This document shows positions 19,954-28,008 of a stretch of DNA of 64,000 bases, in pieces. This stretch comes from Bradyrhizobium sp. AUGA SZCCT0176 (GTDB lineage: Bacteria > Pseudomonadota > Alphaproteobacteria > Rhizobiales > Xanthobacteraceae), in the NCBI RefSeq assembly GCF_018130145.1, contig NZ_JAFCMB010000012.1, positions 1-64,000 of the forward strand, written 5' to 3'. The stretch's first letter is position 1. Each line of letters begins with the position of its first letter. The notes beneath the pieces were generated by a model. The model did not search any database and was not told where the DNA came from. It saw only the letters and a program-made list of their open reading frames with translations. The translations under genes and the position numbers were made by a program.

Positions 19954-21276
19954 CTATCGGTCCGGATTCGCCCGCTCGAACTGGCGCAGCAGACGGTTGC
20001 CGCGCTCGGCGGCGAGGTCGAGGGCGGCTTGCGCGGTCCGCTTGCCGCTAAAGACCTGCTCCAGTTCCTCGTCGATCGCGTCGCGGATCAGCACGAACGA
20101 GCCAAGCCGGATTCCCTTGGAGTGCTCGGTCGGCGGCTTCAAGGTCATCTGCTCGATCGAGATCGCCGCTCCGGGATTGCGATCATAAAACCCCTGCGCA
20201 CGTGAGAGATCGAAGGCGGCGCGGGTGATCGGCAGATAGCCGGTGTTCTGGTGCCAGCCCGCCTGGACTTCCGGCCTCGACAGAAACGCGAAAAACTTCG
20301 CGACCCCGGTATATTCAGCGCGTGGCCGGGCCCGCAGCACCCATAAGGTCGCGCCGCCGATGATGGTGTTCTGCGGCGCGCCAGTCACGTCGGGATAATA
20401 CGGCATCAGGCCGTAACCGACCTCGAATTTCGAATTGGCCTTGATGTCGGCGCGGGTCGCCGACGAGCCGATGAAGATTCCGCACTCGCCCTTCTGGAAG
20501 CGCGGCTCGGCCGACTGGCCGCGGCCGCTATAGTCGTACACTTTCGTGGCCTGCCATTCCGCCAGCTGCGTGATGTGACGCACCACGCTCGGGTTGTTGA
20601 AGGTCAGTTCGGCGTCGAGACCGCCAAACCCATTGCCCTTGGTCGCCAGCGGCAGGTTATGGAATGCCGAAAAATTCTCGACATTGATCCAGGAAGGCCA
20701 GGAGGTGGTCAGGCCGCAGACCGCGCCCGCCGCGCGCAACCTCTTCGCCGCAGCCCCAATTTCGGGCCAGGTTTTCGGCGCCACTTCGGGATCTAGACCG
20801 GCGGCGCGGAAAAGGTCCTTATTGTAATAGAGAATCGGTGTCGAGGCGTTGAACGGGAACGACAGCATGTTGCCGGCGACGTCGGAATAATAGCCTGCGA
20901 CGGCCGGCAGATAGGCAGCCGGCGAGAACGGCTCCGACTGGTCGCGCATCAACTCGAACACCGGATAGATCGCGCCCTTTGCCGCCATCATGGTCGCGGT
21001 CGCGATCTCGTTGACCTGAACGATGGCGGGCTGGCTGCGTGAACGAAAGGCGAAGATCGCCGCCGTCACCGTTTCGGTGTAATTGCCCTTGTAGGCCGGA
21101 ACGATCCGGTAGTCGGATTGCGAGGCGTTGAAATCGGTCGCGAGCTTCTCCAGCTGCTTGCCGAGTTCACCCGACATCGCGTGCCACCACATGATCTCGG
21201 TGGTCGCCTGCGCCGGAGTTACCAGCACGGTGAGTGCGAGCGCGACGGGCTGAAACAACCTCAAGACCGACTTCAC
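19954..21276 (-). CDS. UgpB-type extracellular solute-binding protein (glycerol-3-phosphate/sugar ABC family), orphan
   Basis: 440 aa if translation starts at GTG 21276, chosen because the next residues form a signal peptide (VKSVLRLFQPVALALTVLVTPAQA) and no Met occurs before the mature domain. Mature N-terminus TEIMWWHAMSG and blocks AYKGNYTETV, QVNEIATATMMA, FPFNASTPILYYNKDLF and AEPRFQKGECGIFIGSSATR are UgpB-like. Family role: binding glycerol-3-phosphate or glycerophosphodiesters for UgpAEC. None of those partners is present. It is divergent from the DctP-type sensor-linked gene 217 bp away. Confidence 0.88.
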   Translation of the reverse strand: MKSVLRLFQPVALALTVLVTPAQATTEIMWWHAMSGELGKQLEKLATDFNASQSDYRIVPAYKGNYTETVTAAIFAFRSRSQPAIVQVNEIATATMMAAKGAIYPVFELMRDQSEPFSPAAYLPAVAGYYSDVAGNMLSFPFNASTPILYYNKDLFRAAGLDPEVAPKTWPEIGAAAKRLRAAGAVCGLTTSWPSWINVENFSAFHNLPLATKGNGFGGLDAELTFNNPSVVRHITQLAEWQATKVYDYSGRGQSAEPRFQKGECGIFIGSSATRADIKANSKFEVGYGLMPYYPDVTGAPQNTIIGGATLWVLRARPRAEYTGVAKFFAFLSRPEVQAGWHQNTGYLPITRAAFDLSRAQGFYDRNPGAAISIEQMTLKPPTEHSKGIRLGSFVLIRDAIDEELEQVFSGKRTAQAALDLAAERGNRLLRQFERANPDR

Positions 21277-21493
21277 TGATGAATCACTTTGCCAAAACCG
21301 CTTGTCAGGACCGCGACCAAATCTGCGCGCTGCGCCCTCATAGATGCCCGCGCCCGCCGTTTCAATCCACCACCGCCGTCGCACCGCACAATTAACGATT
21401 GCAGCGGCTCCGGATAGCCAAGTGTGGGCGCCTTCTGCTAAAAAAACATTGAACCTTTTCTTCCCGCCGCAGACTTCTTCACAAGGGGATTTG

Positions 21494-22489
21494 TTGCCTG
21501 TGTATCGCCGCGCCGACCTTTCGCGGATCATAATGCTTGTTCTGGCGTTGTTCCTGACAGCGGCCGCAACGAGCGTTTTTGCGCGCGAATTTCGCGCCGC
21601 CGATACCCAGAACGAGAGTTATCCGACCGTGCAGGCGCTGCACTACATGGGCAGCCTGGTTGCGGAACGCACCGGCGGCCGCCACGAGATCAAGGTGTTC
21701 CATTCGCGCCAGCTCGGCGAGGAAAAGGAAACCCTGGAGCAGACCCGCGCAGGCGCCATCGATATCAATCGTACCAACGTCGCATTGATCGGGACCATGG
21801 TGCCGGCGATGAATGTGCTGGCGATGCCGTTTCTGTTCCGCTCCATCGAGCATTTGCAGAAGGTGCTGGATGGTCCGATCGGCAACGAGATCCTGGACAG
21901 CTTCGAACCTTACGGCTTCGTCGGCCTCGCGTTCTACGATTCCGGCGCCCGTTCGATCTACAACCACGTCCGCCCGGTCACCTCGATGGCCGACCTCAAG
22001 GGCTTGCGGATTCGGGTGCAGCAATCCGAGCAGATGGTCGAGATGATCCGCTCGCTCGGCGCCGATCCGGTCGCACTGCCCTACGGTCAGGTGCTGACCG
22101 GACTCTCGACCAAATTGATCGACGGCGCCGAGAATAACTGGCCGTCCTTTGTCACCACCGATCACTACAAATTCGCCGGCTTCTACACCCTCACCGAACA
22201 TACGATGAGCCCGGAAGTGCTGGTGATGTCGAAAAAGGCGTGGTCTAGCCTGTCGCCCGAAGACCAGAAGGCCTTTCGCGAAGCCGCACAGCGCTCGAGC
22301 CGCTTCATGCGCGAAAAATGGCGCGATCTCGAAGAGCGCTCGCGCAAGCAGGCGGAAGACGCCGGCGTCAAGATCGTCACCGATTTCGACCGCAAGCCGC
22401 TCGAGGCGGCGATGGCGGGAATTTACGCCAAGGCGCAGCAAGACCCCGCGATTGCGCGGCTCATTGAACGAATTCGCAAGGTGCAGTGA
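21494..22489 (+). CDS. TRAP-family (DctP) solute-binding protein linked to a sensor kinase
   Basis: About 331 aa if TTG 21494 is the start. AAGGGGA (21483-21489) just upstream and the basic signal peptide that follows (YRRADLSRIIMLVLALFLT...ATSVFA) support an initiation here, with TTG 21491 or GTG 21500 as alternatives. DctP hallmarks are KGLRIRVQQSEQMVEM with the ligand-carboxylate arginine, GGRHEIKVFHSRQLGEEKE, and VALPYGQVLTGLSTKLIDGAENN. No DctQ/DctM membrane subunit follows. Instead a histidine kinase gene begins two bases after the stop, so this protein probably presents an organic acid to the kinase. Confidence 0.9.
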   Translation: MPVYRRADLSRIIMLVLALFLTAAATSVFAREFRAADTQNESYPTVQALHYMGSLVAERTGGRHEIKVFHSRQLGEEKETLEQTRAGAIDINRTNVALIGTMVPAMNVLAMPFLFRSIEHLQKVLDGPIGNEILDSFEPYGFVGLAFYDSGARSIYNHVRPVTSMADLKGLRIRVQQSEQMVEMIRSLGADPVALPYGQVLTGLSTKLIDGAENNWPSFVTTDHYKFAGFYTLTEHTMSPEVLVMSKKAWSSLSPEDQKAFREAAQRSSRFMREKWRDLEERSRKQAEDAGVKIVTDFDRKPLEAAMAGIYAKAQQDPAIARLIERIRKVQ

Positions 22490-22490
22490 G

Positions 22491-24587
22491 TTGGCCGCAA
22501 CCTCGCAACAAGACGGATCAGTGGAACGGCCGGCGAGCCTCGCCGCACGCGGCCGTATTCGCATCGTCCAGGTGCTGCGCGCGGTCCCGATCCGCTGGCG
22601 CATCCTGTCGATCGCGGCCTTGAACTCCGCCGTGGTCGTGGTGCTGGCCGCGCTGATATGGAACGGCGCCAAGGTGCTCGGTTCGGCCTGGGAAGATGTT
22701 CGCCACGTCAGGGAATCCGACAAGATCCTGGCGCTGCTTGAAAGCGAAACCAGCCGGCTGCAGAACCTGATCCATCGCTACATCAACCAGCCGAGCCCGG
22801 AACTGTTCGCGGAGATCCTGCTGCTGCGCGAAGCCGTGCTCGGCACACTGACCAACCGCGCCTCGAACGACCCGATGCTTTCGGGCTCGGTCGAGCAGCT
22901 CGAGCAGGTCACCGACCGCTTCCTCAACGGTTTCGGCGAACTGCGCGCGGTGCAGGCGACGATCTCTAAAACCTACGAGCAACAGGTGCTGGGCCCGGCC
23001 AGGGACATGGCCGGGCTCTATTCCATCATCGAGGGCGCCACCGGGCACCGCGATGCGCTGATCTGGCCGTCGCTCGGAAAATCCCGCGAGGCGTTTACCG
23101 GGATGCTGGTCGCCGCCAACGCCTATTACCTTTCGCTGGCGTCGGCTTCGGCCGAGGACGCCCGCCGCAATACCGAGACGATCGAAAAAACCATCCCGGT
23201 GATGTCCGACCTTGCCGACAATGATTTGCAGCGCATGGCGCTGACGCGGCTGCATGCGAAAACCCTGGCGTTGCGCGAGGGACTGGCGAAGCTGACCGAG
23301 CAGCTTGCGATCCGGACCGAATTGTTGCGCAACACCATCGACGCCAGCCAGGCCGATGCGATCGGCGTGATCGACAGCCTGTCGGTGAAGATGCGCCAGC
23401 GCGAGCAAAAGGCGCAGGAAACCTTCGACCGCACGCTGGCGGGCATTTCGCGCCGGGTGCTGTCGATCGCCGTGATCTTCCTCGGCATCATCCTGTCCGC
23501 GGGTGTCCTGATCGCGCTCTCGATCCGGCTGCCGCTGCAGCAGATCATGGCGTCGATGCACGCGATCACCTCGGGCAATTACGATCGCGCCGTGCAGGGC
23601 ACGTCAGCCAAGGACGAGGTCGGCGCGATGGCGCGCGCGGTGGAGGTGTTCCGCGAAAACGCCATCGCCAAACGCAAGACCGAGGACGAGCTGCGCGCGT
23701 CGAAGGAAAAGGCCGAGGGCGCGCTGCTCGAACTCAATGCCGCCCAGCAGAACCTGATCGACGCCGAACGGCTGGCGGCGCTGGGCGGCCTGGTCGCCGG
23801 CGTCGCCCACGAGGTCAACAACCCGATCGGCATCAGCCTGACGGTGGCATCGAGCTTCGCGCGCCGCGCGGAAATCTTCGAGACCGAGCTGCGCACCGAG
23901 CCGCTGCGCCGCTCCAAGCTCGACGAGTTCGTCAAGAGCTCGCGCGACGCCGCCGGGCAACTGGTGGCCAATTTGCACCGTGCCGGCGAACTGATCCAGT
24001 CGTTCAAGCAGGTGGCGGTGGACCGCTCCCATGCCGAGCGGCGGCAATTCAGCCTCAGCGAGGCCACCGACCAGATCGTCGCGAGCCTGCGCCCGGTGTT
24101 GAAGAAGGCGACGATTACGCTGTCGGTCGACGTGCCGGAGGGTCTGTTGATCGACGGCTATCCCGGCTCCTACGGCCAGATTTTAACCAATCTTTTCCTC
24201 AACGCAGCCAATCATGCCTTCGCCGACGGCCGTTCCGGCGCGATCTCGCTTTCGGCACGGGCCCGCGGCAGTGACGATGTCGAAATCATTTTTGCCGATA
24301 ATGGGGCCGGAATGACGCCGGACGTCCAGCGGCAGGCGTTCGATCCGTTCTTTACCACGCGCCGCAACGAGGGCGGTACCGGACTGGGCTTGCATATCGT
24401 CTATAATCTTGTCACTCAACAGCTCGGCGGCCGGATGATGCTGGAGTCAAGGCTAGGACAAGGCACCACTTTCCGCATTATCATGCCCAAGGTCGCCAAG
24501 GGAATCGTAACCAGCGGACCCACTATCACAGACGCAGCAGCCGACGGAACCCCTCAATGGCCGAACAGGACGATGTCCTCCACCTGA
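22491..24587 (+). CDS. Membrane sensor histidine kinase (DctB/NtrB-type HPK4), coupled to the DctP protein
   Basis: 698 aa from TTG 22491 (AAGGTG upstream); an ATG 39 bases earlier overlaps dctP. Numbering from that ATG: membrane helix 1 at about 51-70, an all-helical periplasmic domain of about 260 residues, helix 2 at about 336-357, HAMP, coiled coil to 440, phospho-acceptor His453 in GGLVAGVAHEVNNPIG, and N box N584 (LFLNAANHAF). G1 is DNGAGM, the F box FDPFFTTRRNEGG, and G2 GTGLGLHIV. The helical sensor resembles the arrangement of TorS, which reads a periplasmic binding protein. It carries no receiver domain of its own. Confidence 0.9.
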   Translation: MAATSQQDGSVERPASLAARGRIRIVQVLRAVPIRWRILSIAALNSAVVVVLAALIWNGAKVLGSAWEDVRHVRESDKILALLESETSRLQNLIHRYINQPSPELFAEILLLREAVLGTLTNRASNDPMLSGSVEQLEQVTDRFLNGFGELRAVQATISKTYEQQVLGPARDMAGLYSIIEGATGHRDALIWPSLGKSREAFTGMLVAANAYYLSLASASAEDARRNTETIEKTIPVMSDLADNDLQRMALTRLHAKTLALREGLAKLTEQLAIRTELLRNTIDASQADAIGVIDSLSVKMRQREQKAQETFDRTLAGISRRVLSIAVIFLGIILSAGVLIALSIRLPLQQIMASMHAITSGNYDRAVQGTSAKDEVGAMARAVEVFRENAIAKRKTEDELRASKEKAEGALLELNAAQQNLIDAERLAALGGLVAGVAHEVNNPIGISLTVASSFARRAEIFETELRTEPLRRSKLDEFVKSSRDAAGQLVANLHRAGELIQSFKQVAVDRSHAERRQFSLSEATDQIVASLRPVLKKATITLSVDVPEGLLIDGYPGSYGQILTNLFLNAANHAFADGRSGAISLSARARGSDDVEIIFADNGAGMTPDVQRQAFDPFFTTRRNEGGTGLGLHIVYNLVTQQLGGRMMLESRLGQGTTFRIIMPKVAKGIVTSGPTITDAAADGTPQWPNRTMSST

Positions 24588-26302
24588 TCGACGATTCCGA
24601 AACCGCCCCGGATGATTCGTCTGTACGCAAATGGAAGATCGCCGTCATCGACGACGATCAGGCGGTGCATGAAGGCACCCGGTTTGCGCTGAGCGACTAC
24701 AACCTCCACGGCGCCACGCTGGAAATCCTCTCCGCCTATTCCGCGGCTGAAGGCCGCGTCCTGATGCGCGACAATCCCGATATCGCCGCCGTGCTGCTCG
24801 ACGTCATCATGGAAACCGACGTCGCCGGCCTCGACCTCGTCGAGTACATCCGCAACGACATCAAGAACGAGACCGTCCGCATCATCCTGCGCACCGGCCA
24901 GCCCGGCCAGGCGCCGGAGCGCCGCGTCATCGTCCAGTACGACATCAACGACTACAAGGCCAAAACCGAGCTCACCGCCGACAAGCTGTTCACCTCGCTG
25001 ACCGCCGCCTTGCGCAGCTATCAGCAGCTCGAGCGCATGGTGCAGACAAGGCGCGGGCTCGAAATCATCATCGACGCCGCCTCCACCCTGTATGATTTCA
25101 AATCGATGCAGCGCCTCGCCGAAGGGGTGTTGACGCAACTGGCTTCGCTGCTCAATGTCGATTGCGCCGGTATACTGGTGCTGCGCGACGACGGCGCCCC
25201 CGGCAGCGAATTCTCCGTGCTGGCGGGTTCGGGTTGCTACAGCCGCTTCATCGGCTCGACCAGTTCAAAATCACTCGATCCGGATTTGCGGCAGATGGTG
25301 GAAGACGCCTTCACGCGCCGCAAGAACGAGTTCGCCGACCACCGCAGCGTGCTTTACCTGCGCACCGGCTCTGGCCGTGAGGTCGTGGTGCTGCTGCAGG
25401 CCGAGCGCCAGCTTTCCGACACCGATCGCGCGCTGGTCGAGATTTTCTCCAGCCGGCTGTCGATCGCGTTCGACAATGTGATCCTCTACCAGCAGCTGCA
25501 CGCGGCCAATACCCAGCTCGAAGACCGCGTCGCCCAGCGCACCCGCGCGCTGATGCAGGCCAACCGCCGGCTTTCGGCGCAGTGGCTGCGGCTGCAGCGC
25601 GCCAACGGCTTCAAGAATGAAATCCTCGGCACCGTCGCCCACGACCTGAAAAACCCGCTCGGCGTCATTCTCGGCCGCACCGAAATGCTGAACGAACTGA
25701 TCAGCGCCGGCTCGCCGAAGGAAAACGTCACTGCGCAGGTCGACCACATCCGCGACGCCACCAAGCGCCTGACCTCGATGGTCGATCATCTGATTTCGGA
25801 TGCGATGGCGGACGCCTTCGACATCACCATCCGCCGCGAGCCGGTCGACGTCGGCGCCCTGGTGGCCGAAGTCACCGACGCCAATCTGCCCTCGGCCGTG
25901 AACAAGCAGCAGACCATCAACGTCTCCGCGCCGCCGAATTTCGTCACCATGTGTGACGTCGACCGGATCCGCGAGGCGATCGACAATCTGGTCAGCAATG
26001 CCATCAAATATTCACCTATCGGCGGCAAGATCACGGTGGGCGTCACCCATGAGGGTGACAACACCGTCGTGCGGATCACGGACGAGGGCGCGGGCCTGTC
26101 GCCCGAGGATCTCGGCCGGCTGTTCGGCCGCTTCCAGCGGCTGTCAGCCAAGCCGACCGCGGGCGAAAGCTCGACCGGCCTCGGTCTATCGATCGTCAAA
26201 CGCATTATCGACATGCATGGCGGCCATGTGACCGCGGATAGTCCCGGCCCCGGACAGGGGTCGACGTTTACGGTTACACTGCCTGCAGCAGAGACATCAT
26301 GA
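24557..26302 (+). CDS. Soluble REC-DUF3369-histidine kinase hybrid
   Basis: 581 aa, no membrane segment. Order: receiver domain with phospho-acceptor D82 (AAVLLDVIM) and acidic pocket IDDD at 31-34, then a GAF-like DUF3369 region at about 150-310, a short coiled coil, HisKA with H362 (GTVAHDLKNPLG), and HATPase (NAIKYS, DEGAGLS, STGLGLSIVKRI). The receiver is N-terminal, so the protein can take phosphate from the upstream kinase and in turn act as a kinase for the next gene. It overlaps the upstream kinase by 31 bp and the downstream regulator by 4 bp. Confidence 0.9.
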   Translation: MAEQDDVLHLIDDSETAPDDSSVRKWKIAVIDDDQAVHEGTRFALSDYNLHGATLEILSAYSAAEGRVLMRDNPDIAAVLLDVIMETDVAGLDLVEYIRNDIKNETVRIILRTGQPGQAPERRVIVQYDINDYKAKTELTADKLFTSLTAALRSYQQLERMVQTRRGLEIIIDAASTLYDFKSMQRLAEGVLTQLASLLNVDCAGILVLRDDGAPGSEFSVLAGSGCYSRFIGSTSSKSLDPDLRQMVEDAFTRRKNEFADHRSVLYLRTGSGREVVVLLQAERQLSDTDRALVEIFSSRLSIAFDNVILYQQLHAANTQLEDRVAQRTRALMQANRRLSAQWLRLQRANGFKNEILGTVAHDLKNPLGVILGRTEMLNELISAGSPKENVTAQVDHIRDATKRLTSMVDHLISDAMADAFDITIRREPVDVGALVAEVTDANLPSAVNKQQTINVSAPPNFVTMCDVDRIREAIDNLVSNAIKYSPIGGKITVGVTHEGDNTVVRITDEGAGLSPEDLGRLFGRFQRLSAKPTAGESSTGLGLSIVKRIIDMHGGHVTADSPGPGQGSTFTVTLPAAETS

Positions 26303-27036
26303 GCCAGAGCCAGCACATCATCATCGTCGACGACGAGGCGCCGGCCCGCGAAATGGTCGGCGATTACCTCAAGATGCACGGTTTCGCCGTGACGCTATGC
26401 GACGGCGGCAAGAGCCTGCGCGGCGTCATCGAAACCAATGTGCCCGACCTCGTCGTGCTCGACCTCAACATGCCCGAGGAAGACGGGCTCTCGATCATCC
26501 GCGACCTGAAAAGCCGCATCAACGTCCCCGTCATCATGCTGACGGCGACCGCAAGCCCGATCGACCGCGTCGTCGGCCTTGAGCTTGGGGCTGACGATTA
26601 CATCGCAAAGCCCTGCGAGCTGCGCGAATTGATGGCGCGCATCCGCTCGGTGCTGCGCCGCAGTGCGCCGGTCAAGGCGGCGACGCCCGAGGCCGCCGGC
26701 GCCAAGGCGGAAAAGGAGCAATTGGTGCGGTTCGGCACCAAATGGCTCGATCTCGAGGCCCAGGCGCTGCGCGACGACGAAGGCAACGAGCATCCGCTGA
26801 CCGCGTCCGAATTCGGCCTGTTGAAGGTGTTCGCGGCCAATCCGAAGCGGGTGCTGTCGCGCGAGCGGCTGCTGGAGCTGGCGAATGCGCGCGACGCCGA
26901 AGCGTTCGACCGTGCGGTCGACCTCCGCATCATGCGGATCCGGCGCAAGATCGAGATCGACCCGACCAAGCCCGCCGTGATCCGCACCATCCGCGGCGGC
27001 GGCTACCTGTTCTCGCCGACCGGCGAGAAGGGTTAG
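26299..27036 (+). CDS. OmpR-family response regulator
   Basis: 245 aa. Receiver domain residues 6-120 with D11/D12 and phospho-acceptor D55 (VVLDLNMPEEDG), K105-region IAKPCELREL. The C-terminal winged helix has LTASEFGLLKVFAANPKRVLSR and the terminal VIRTIRGGGYLFSP. Its ATG overlaps the stop of the hybrid kinase (ATGA), so it is the output of that cascade. Targets are unknown; the divergent UgpB-type gene and distant transporter genes are possibilities. A palindromic repeat follows the stop. Confidence 0.94.
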   Translation: MSQSQHIIIVDDEAPAREMVGDYLKMHGFAVTLCDGGKSLRGVIETNVPDLVVLDLNMPEEDGLSIIRDLKSRINVPVIMLTATASPIDRVVGLELGADDYIAKPCELRELMARIRSVLRRSAPVKAATPEAAGAKAEKEQLVRFGTKWLDLEAQALRDDEGNEHPLTASEFGLLKVFAANPKRVLSRERLLELANARDAEAFDRAVDLRIMRIRRKIEIDPTKPAVIRTIRGGGYLFSPTGEKG

Positions 27037-27396: not shown

Positions 27397-28008
27397 ATGC
27401 CGAACGTGATTGCCATCAACGCTGCAGCCCGCAAGCACATTGCCGATGCCCGCGCGACATCGGACGAATCGCTGCTGGAGAGCATTGCCAAAGGCGACCG
27501 CACGGCGATGCACGTGCTTTATTCCCGGCATCACGTACGGGTTTACCGCTTCATCCTGCGCATGGTGCGCGATACCACGATGGCGGAAGACCTCGTCAGC
27601 CAGGTGTTTCTGGACGTGTGGCGCACCGCCAGCCAATTCGAAGGCCGCTCCCAGGTTTCGACCTGGTTGCTGTCGATCGCCCGCTTCAAGGCGCTGACCG
27701 CGCTGCGCCAGCGCAAGCATGAGGATATCGATCAGGACGACGTGCTCGAGATCGCCGACGAAGCCGACACCCCGGAAGCGTCGCTCGACCGCAGCAACAC
27801 CAGCGCCATCCTGCGCGCCTGTGTCGCCAAGCTGTCGCCGGCGCACCGCGAGATCATCAACCTGGTCTACTACCACGAGAAGTCGGTGGAAGAGGCCGGC
27901 GCGATCATCGGTATTCCCCAGAGCACAGTGAAGACCCGGATGTTCTACGCCCGCAAACAATTGGCCGACTTGCTTAAGGTCGCAGGCGTGGACAGCATCG
28001 CCGCATAA
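27397..28008 (+). CDS. ECF-type RNA polymerase sigma factor
   Basis: 203 aa from ATG 27397 (GGGAG six bases upstream). Region 2: LYSRHHVRVYRFILRMVRDTTMAEDLVSQVFLDVWRTASQFEGRSQVSTWLLSIARFKAL. Region 4: LSPAHREIINLVYYHEKSVEEAGAIIGIPQSTVKTRMFYARKQL. These are the only two conserved sigma regions, as in ECF factors. No anti-sigma factor gene is next to it; the following gene is a tiny exported protein. The target regulon cannot be read from the window. Confidence 0.92.
   Translation: MPNVIAINAAARKHIADARATSDESLLESIAKGDRTAMHVLYSRHHVRVYRFILRMVRDTTMAEDLVSQVFLDVWRTASQFEGRSQVSTWLLSIARFKALTALRQRKHEDIDQDDVLEIADEADTPEASLDRSNTSAILRACVAKLSPAHREIINLVYYHEKSVEEAGAIIGIPQSTVKTRMFYARKQLADLLKVAGVDSIAA

Follow-up and report, generated by a model that had tools for sequence, protein, structure and literature searches.

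Systems in which a binding protein acts on a sensor kinase include TorT-TorS, LuxP-LuxQ, and XylFII-LytS, as given in excerpts of PMC6321045 and PMC8534201, and an excerpt of PMC9602780 counts about ten characterized cases of binding proteins activating sensor kinases. In TorT-TorS, the kinase sensor on which the periplasmic binding protein acts is all-helical and built as two stacked bundles (PMC8534201 and PMC6321045, in part), the HBM-type chemoreceptor CtpL is placed among the receptors with indirect ligand binding (PMC6321045, in part), and in DctB-DctS-DctA of Bacillus subtilis an accessory co-receptor of the sensor kinase is described (PMC6978683, in part). The window analyzed here, a stretch of 64,000 nucleotides from Bradyrhizobium sp. 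AUGA SZCCT0176 (contig NZ_JAFCMB010000012.1), carries an operon in which the gene for a DctP-family binding protein is followed by genes for two histidine kinases, HK1 and HK2, and for a response regulator (RR). On balance, we slightly favor the reading that this transporter-free DctP protein became a dedicated co-sensor docking on the distal tip of a TorS-like kinase that heads a two-kinase cascade, and that it was shed repeatedly, with the kinase reverting to DctP-independent sensing and the docking site readable from sequence as the residues that loosen after the loss.

All four genes are on the plus strand, and their order as given in the original prediction (DctP protein, membrane kinase, REC-DUF3369-kinase, and OmpR regulator) was confirmed by Pfam at the same coordinates. 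The dctP gene (21494..22489) encodes a protein of SBP family 7 (PF03480, 277 bits; NF037995 and TIGR00787) with a signal peptide read by eye. HK1 (22491..24587) is a membrane histidine kinase with HAMP (35 bits) and HATPase (82 bits) domains, and its start is either TTG 22491, 1 base after the dctP stop, or TTG 22452, which overlaps dctP. Its phospho-acceptor, predicted as His453, is correct when counted from TTG 22452 and becomes H440 when counted from TTG 22491. No Pfam HisKA match at E 0.01 was found in this region of HK1, where the H-box was read from the sequence and was invariant in 121/121 aligned loci. HK2 (24557..26302), overlapping HK1 by 31 bases, is a soluble kinase with a receiver (D82), a DUF3369 domain that is GAF-like by fold (24998..25498; PF11849, 161 bits; Foldseek), HisKA (H362), and HATPase. 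The HK2 receiver scored 28.2 bits, below the Pfam cutoff of 30.2, with its active-site residues kept, and DUF3369 is the single PF11849 match in the genome. The RR gene (26299..27036), overlapping HK2 by 4 bases, encodes an OmpR-family response regulator with a Pfam receiver (D55) and a winged-helix Trans_reg_C domain; the predicted positions H362, D82, and D55 were correct.

Fairly probable as a whole is a model in which the DctP-family protein, probably a binder of uronates or related sugar acids, would dock on the HK1 sensor at its membrane-distal tip and modulate HK1 as TorT does TorS. HK1 would pass phosphate to the receiver at the N terminus of HK2, whose phosphorylation would then set the activity of HK2's own kinase, and HK2 would phosphorylate the OmpR regulator. 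HK1 would also retain a second, DctP-independent function, perhaps direct sensing as in McpS, and hence DctP could go and the kinases stay.

The full HK1 query at E 1e-60 gave matches in 59 of 149 family genomes, some through paralogous kinase domains only. With the HK1 sensor alone as the query, matches were found in 175 of 391 family genomes and, across the order, in 37 of 397 genomes; the relatives named are the best 80 of 546, mostly Bradyrhizobium. Not every locus (L numbers; genomes are given G numbers) comes from an independent genome, L183 being identical to L109. Locus L112, from a record titled Frankia sp. RB7 (JAUEPE010000036.1), falls within Bradyrhizobium, and this record is probably contamination or wrongly named.

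Among 118 classified loci, dctP was intact in 74, a remnant in 25, and absent in 19, and its state was unknown in two more. At the intact loci, the dctP frame stayed open up to no more than 114 bases from the HK1 match, 15 of the remnants were assigned from tblastn matches and 10 by hand from reading frames, and the loci L059 and L113 at contig edges were excluded from the main counts. L179 was scored absent although only 115 bases precede HK1 on its contig, its genome being without a DctP match; leaving it out gives 117 classified loci, 18 absent, and 43 DctP-less. In other families of the order, where 15 of the 21 genomes with a sensor match were read, intact DctP stood directly upstream of HK1 in 10 of the 15 loci and was 62 to 67% identical to the window DctP. 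Because these distant loci carry intact dctP directly upstream of HK1, DctP is ancestral, and it is expendable. Parsimony on the dctP state gave at least 15 changes; read as losses only, it gave 20, or 18 when HK1 data were excluded from the tree. Relocation of dctP was rejected in the 21 searched genomes lacking an intact copy, where the best other DctP was at most 42% identical and 8 of the 21 had no DctP match at all at E 1e-30.

Many Bradyrhizobium remnants of dctP retain the signal peptide, with the middle of the gene gone. Short open remnants with a signal peptide were seen at L057, L058, L060-L064, L066-L068, L072, L073, L076-L078, L084, and L089, and in the L060-type group the remnant stop overlaps the HK1 start TTG. 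It is not claimed that these small open reading frames are kept for translational coupling to HK1, other remnants being frameshifted and open frames being common in GC-rich DNA.

The HK1 sensors were under purifying selection with or without DctP. In hand-picked clades, the dN/dS of the sensor was 0.07 to 0.11 in four DctP-less clades versus 0.035 to 0.125 in three intact ones; a fifth, mixed DctP-less clade had 0.26, with the catalytic domain also high at 0.21. Intact DctP itself had a dN/dS of 0.12 to 0.30. Relaxed selection on the whole sensor after dctP loss was not clear from these clade values.

The trace of the loss was found at single sites of the periplasmic sensor of HK1 (residues 63 to 317, bounds set by eye; 22677..23441, plus strand). 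Every change at a sensor site was placed on a branch with or without DctP, using a main tree built from HK2, RR, and the catalytic domain of HK1; a second tree used no HK1 data, counted L059 as lost, and excluded loci with a short HK2. An excess of changes on DctP-less branches at P < 0.001 was present at 4 of the 157 tested sensor sites (I179, L190, V237, and D240) and at none of 453 tested sites elsewhere (117 in the HK1 catalytic domain, 31 in HAMP, 241 in HK2, and 64 in RR), and no tested site showed the reverse excess on DctP-bearing branches. Changes on DctP-less branches of the main tree made up 14/14 at L190 (codon 23058..23060, plus strand, as are those that follow), 11/13 at I179, 11/12 at V237 (codon 23199..23201), and 5/5 at G175; on the second tree, they made up 10/12 at L190 and 9/11 at V237, and both trees gave 12/14 at D240 (codon 23208..23210) and 7/8 at K197 (codon 23079..23081). 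On the second tree, I179, L190, K197, V237, and D240 were the only sensor sites at P < 0.005, with none in the catalytic domain or HAMP. Random sets of clades with like branch length never reached four such sites in 2,000 draws, the maximum being two.

The changes recurred across the 20 losses, with 12 lineages changed at L190, 10 at I179, nine each at V237 and D240, and five each at K197 and G175. Leucine occupied position 190 in all 75 intact loci, the window included, versus 18 of 44 DctP-less loci, and aspartate occupied position 240 in 75/75 versus 23/44. In the structural model, the changed sites lie where helix 3 ends, where helix 4 begins, in the loop between these two, and where helix 5 ends, and they meet at one end of a bundle. 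Helix 6 continues for about 70 residues to the membrane, and this end is therefore apparently the membrane-distal tip of the sensor. The original prediction had called the DctP protein a sensor subunit. That it is a partner of HK1 is supported by tip residues kept alongside intact DctP and changed repeatedly after its loss, and by a sensor model that best matches McpS and TorS; an obligatory subunit it is not, because purifying selection maintains the kinases where it is missing. The tip data thus support DctP as a docked, nonobligatory co-sensor, and we infer physical docking from them.

Further loci were consistent with this pattern. In the other families, L190, K197, V237, and D240 were kept in all 10 intact loci at 40 to 44% sensor identity, L237 with a partial DctP has P190, and the DctP-less L243 has P190, R197, and G237; the DctP-less L245-L247 carry little weight, their sensors being only 20 to 22% identical. 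A rule fixed before scoring predicted intact dctP where L190, K197, V237, and D240 were all ancestral. Of 60 further loci fetched, 14 were dropped as identical to loci already used and 46 were scored, L299 as absent on 473 bases upstream; the dctP state of genome G107 (L313), though not its tip, was known before from L035. All 10 intact new loci kept the four tip residues, and 25 of 36 nonintact ones had a changed tip (Fisher P = 8.7e-5, uncorrected for kinship). Wherever L190 or D240 had changed among the scored new loci, dctP was not intact.

Several observations weigh against this reading of the tip. The single-site P values were weaker on the second tree (1.1e-3 for L190 and 2.5e-3 for V237), and change over the whole sensor rose slightly on DctP-less branches (P = 0.04 to 0.07). 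The tip was placed by the order of helices in a model of pTM 0.49 and not by distances. Two of the 75 intact loci (L097 and L171) differ at one of the four tip sites, and the tip was kept in 8 of the 44 DctP-less first-set loci (seven without L179), two of them from genus g26. I179 and G175 fail outside the family, seven intact loci of family f20 having V179 and Q175. Of the 36 new loci in which dctP is not intact, 11 have an unchanged tip (10 belong to genus g26, the other to G711); the new loci are also not independent, ten of the 25 changed ones looking like a remnant clade of the training set. The g26 loci without dctP and with the four tip residues are L291-L297, L299, L300, and L313, and the new g26 locus L301 has a changed tip (E240). 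Since some DctP-less loci keep the tip, it may have another partner or use in g26 or may decay slowly.

The kinase pair was more constant than DctP. HK2 followed HK1 in 120/120 loci of the first sets (the gap between matches being -27 to 217 bases) and in 17/17 further loci, 137/137 related loci in total, and because of this the HK1-HK2 array is not a chance one. The phospho-acceptors were invariant in the aligned loci (H440 of HK1 and D82 of HK2 in 121/121 each, H362 of HK2 in 114/114, and D55 of RR in 106/106), as was the HK2 receiver at all five tested active-site positions. The model of HK2 residues 20 to 345, of modest confidence (pLDDT 70.1), best matched 6oaq, 6ob8, and 6oap, a dual sensor histidine kinase, in Foldseek (E 1.6e-8, TM 0.37 to 0.40), one of these entries being in a BeF3-bound state, and 6oap was also the best, though weak, sequence match of the front half of HK2 (E 0.013). 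The next matches were GAF domains and Rag-type proteins, the latter with long alignments and poor root mean square deviation. By Pfam and Foldseek, HK2 thus combines a receiver, a GAF-like domain, and a kinase in one chain, as in REC-GAF kinases. Receiver phosphorylation reportedly switches the kinase of 6oap, 6oaq, and 6ob8. Among the Pfam matches of the four proteins at E 0.01 there was no HPt family, and a free HPt elsewhere was not searched for. In the frames listed around the paralogous kinases, read by eye as a pointer to the HK1 partner, no receiver was seen.

At six loci of genus g10 (L150, L151, L152, L154, L155, and L157), the RR ortholog is missing and HK1-HK2 is kept. In five RR-less genomes (G053, G133, G100, G079, and G009), the best other regulators were at most 49% identical to RR, and G079 had no other regulator match to RR at E 1e-50. 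At the conserved sites of the six loci, 0/41 had changed in the HK1 DHp domain and 0/72 in the HK2 receiver, as expected if the HK2 receiver is the partner of HK1; 6/60 had changed in the HK2 CA domain. A His-Asp-His-Asp chain from HK1 through HK2 to RR is plausible and compatible with all data, the direction of transfer being read from these patterns. It is held to be unlikely that HK1 and HK2 instead phosphorylate RR in parallel, with the HK2 receiver as a side input or phosphate sink. This alternative draws on the GAF-like domain that HK2 has of its own. Parallel action is opposed by the invariant active site of the HK2 receiver and by the unchanged HK1 DHp domain in the RR-less loci, which suggests that HK1 still has some partner besides RR. 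The RR-less loci form one clade, however, in which the HK2 DHp domain is also nearly unchanged (1/34 conserved sites); that domain would be expected to loosen if RR were its sole partner, a point that counts against the chain as well.

The AF2 model of HK1 residues 25 to 400 is all-helical (pLDDT 76.5, pTM 0.49), in agreement with the large helical periplasmic domain predicted earlier, and has six helices, two of them long, which were read as a proximal and a distal bundle. In Foldseek, the McpS sensor ranked first (2yfa, E 2.8e-4) and TorS fifth (3i9y, E 4.5e-3), and the model also matched the TorS-TorT complexes 3o1h-j. VIA gave Z 17.0 over 229 residues for McpS (2yfb) and 14.2 over 223 for TorS (3i9y). 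Against this likeness stand the moderate helical match (8 to 16% identity), the unrelated helical proteins that reached Z 13 to 16.5, and Pfam, in which HAMP was the sole sound match of the sensor and the HBM family was not matched; the likeness to McpS and TorS is suggestive only. At four loci of one other family (L238, L239, L240, and L243), the HK1 matches are split between HAMP and the phospho-acceptor region, which suggests about 100 extra residues there.

McpS structures were solved with bound malate and succinate, according to the entry titles, and McpS-like direct sensing would explain how HK1 works without DctP. The same structures lend something to the quite unlikely alternative that direct sensing by HK1, or packing of its dimer, is what the tip residues are for, with dctP loss and tip change both following from a shift of habitat or signal and no contact being made; the DctP-less clades that keep the tip also speak for it. 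Against this alternative, the excess of change appears again and again in separate losses and only at one end of the bundle, and constraint persists over the sensor as a whole.

The DctP protein was predicted to stand without DctM alongside, and tblastn with the 12 DctM proteins of this genome found none adjacent to the operon in the window or in 137 loci, with flank lengths varying and no search aimed at DctQ. Two of the 137 loci had a DctM match, at distances of 6.4 and 9.7 kb beyond the start of HK1, and 6/8 control loci matched. Over the family cutoff, the genome has 18 DctM loci elsewhere (two C7 rows counted as one) and 24 DctP loci. No genome with an intact dctP and no DctM, a combination that would have excluded transport, was found, DctM being present in 40/40 searched relatives. 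The contrary case named in the original prediction, a DctQM pair that uses this DctP protein, was not seen adjoining the operon in the DctM search, and the 18 DctM loci elsewhere leave room for a distant pair. That DctP is the uptake protein of such a pair, placed in the operon for coregulation with the kinases controlling transport, is rather improbable: a partner is always available, given the numbers of DctP and DctM loci, but the ortholog did not stand beside DctM in the loci read, it is far closer in the 10 other-family loci (62 to 67%) than any other DctP in the 21 genomes lacking it (at most 42%), and transport leaves the tip change of HK1 after DctP loss unexplained.

Uronates occur in plant cell walls, and they are the ligand class to which the DctP sequence points. 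The closest solved chains to the DctP protein were 4n8y (E 2.3e-97), 4mhf, 4mij, 4ovr, and 4x8r. Excerpts of two papers give 4n8y with galacturonate and 4x8r with glucuronate (PMC11668362) and 4mhf as a glucuronate/galacturonate binder (PMC7660916). R153, R174, and N214, present in all 74 intact DctP orthologs, are the counterparts, matched by eye, of two arginines and an asparagine named in the part of PMC7660916 consulted, whose four further ligand residues lie outside the comparison. Our best guess for the ligand is a sugar acid, a uronate or one like it, which is more likely than a C4-dicarboxylate, with the warning in an excerpt of PMC11668362 that copurified ligands may not be native.

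Two neighbors flank the operon. Upstream, on the minus strand, lies an orphan gene for a UgpB-type binding protein (19954..21336, start codon not settled; NF008211, 570 bits, cutoff 411), a conserved neighbor and a second transporter-less binding protein beside the kinase operon. It was divergent upstream in 100 of the 113 loci with at least 2,500 bases upstream, and a search of the window and the 137 operon loci at E 1e-20 matched no UgpA-like gene. The genome has a further UgpB above the cutoff, whose flanking frames resemble UgpA and UgpC by eye. The orphan gene may be one that the system regulates, or its product may be another partner of the sensor. Just downstream of RR, on the plus strand, an ECF-type sigma factor gene (27397-28008; NF009168, 346 bits, cutoff 236) was found, and it lies near the operon in many relatives.

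The operon would add a DctP-type case to the few binding-protein-coupled kinases, in bacteria including legume symbionts, and it offers uronates as a ligand class open to testing and a contact site predicted to the residue. The repeated dctP losses are a natural experiment in passing from a two-part to a one-part sensor, and comparison before and after loss could locate docking sites in other operons. No paper on this operon was found among open-license papers, and the parts of the literature consulted hold no report of repeated loss of the binding protein in TorT-TorS. As far as the searches show, four things are new: a transporter-free group of DctP orthologs coupled with a kinase, the link of this group to a REC-DUF3369 kinase, the repeated loss of the protein, and the trace that this loss left at particular sites of the kinase.

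Compared with known systems, the DctP protein shares with the uronate-type TRAP binding proteins (4n8y, 4mhf, and 4x8r) the closest solved sequences and the counterparts of R153, R174, and N214; those proteins serve, or are assumed to serve, transport, whereas DctP here has no adjacent DctM. The HK2 chain resembles the kinase of 6oap, 6oaq, and 6ob8 in joining receiver, GAF-like domain, and kinase; that kinase is light-responsive according to the entry titles. In this operon, the kinase upstream of HK2 is encoded next door. In DctB-DctS-DctA, where B. subtilis DctB is said to be DctP-like, the transporter DctA is part of the unit, whereas here there is no adjacent transporter gene and the sensor is helical. 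TorT reportedly belongs to another binding-protein family, and TorS is said to carry its own relay domains. TorT-TorS shares with this operon the linkage of a binding protein gene to a kinase gene, its sensor (3i9y) is one that the HK1 model suggestively resembles, and the operon differs from it in pairing a DctP protein with a kinase that is followed by a separate REC-kinase.

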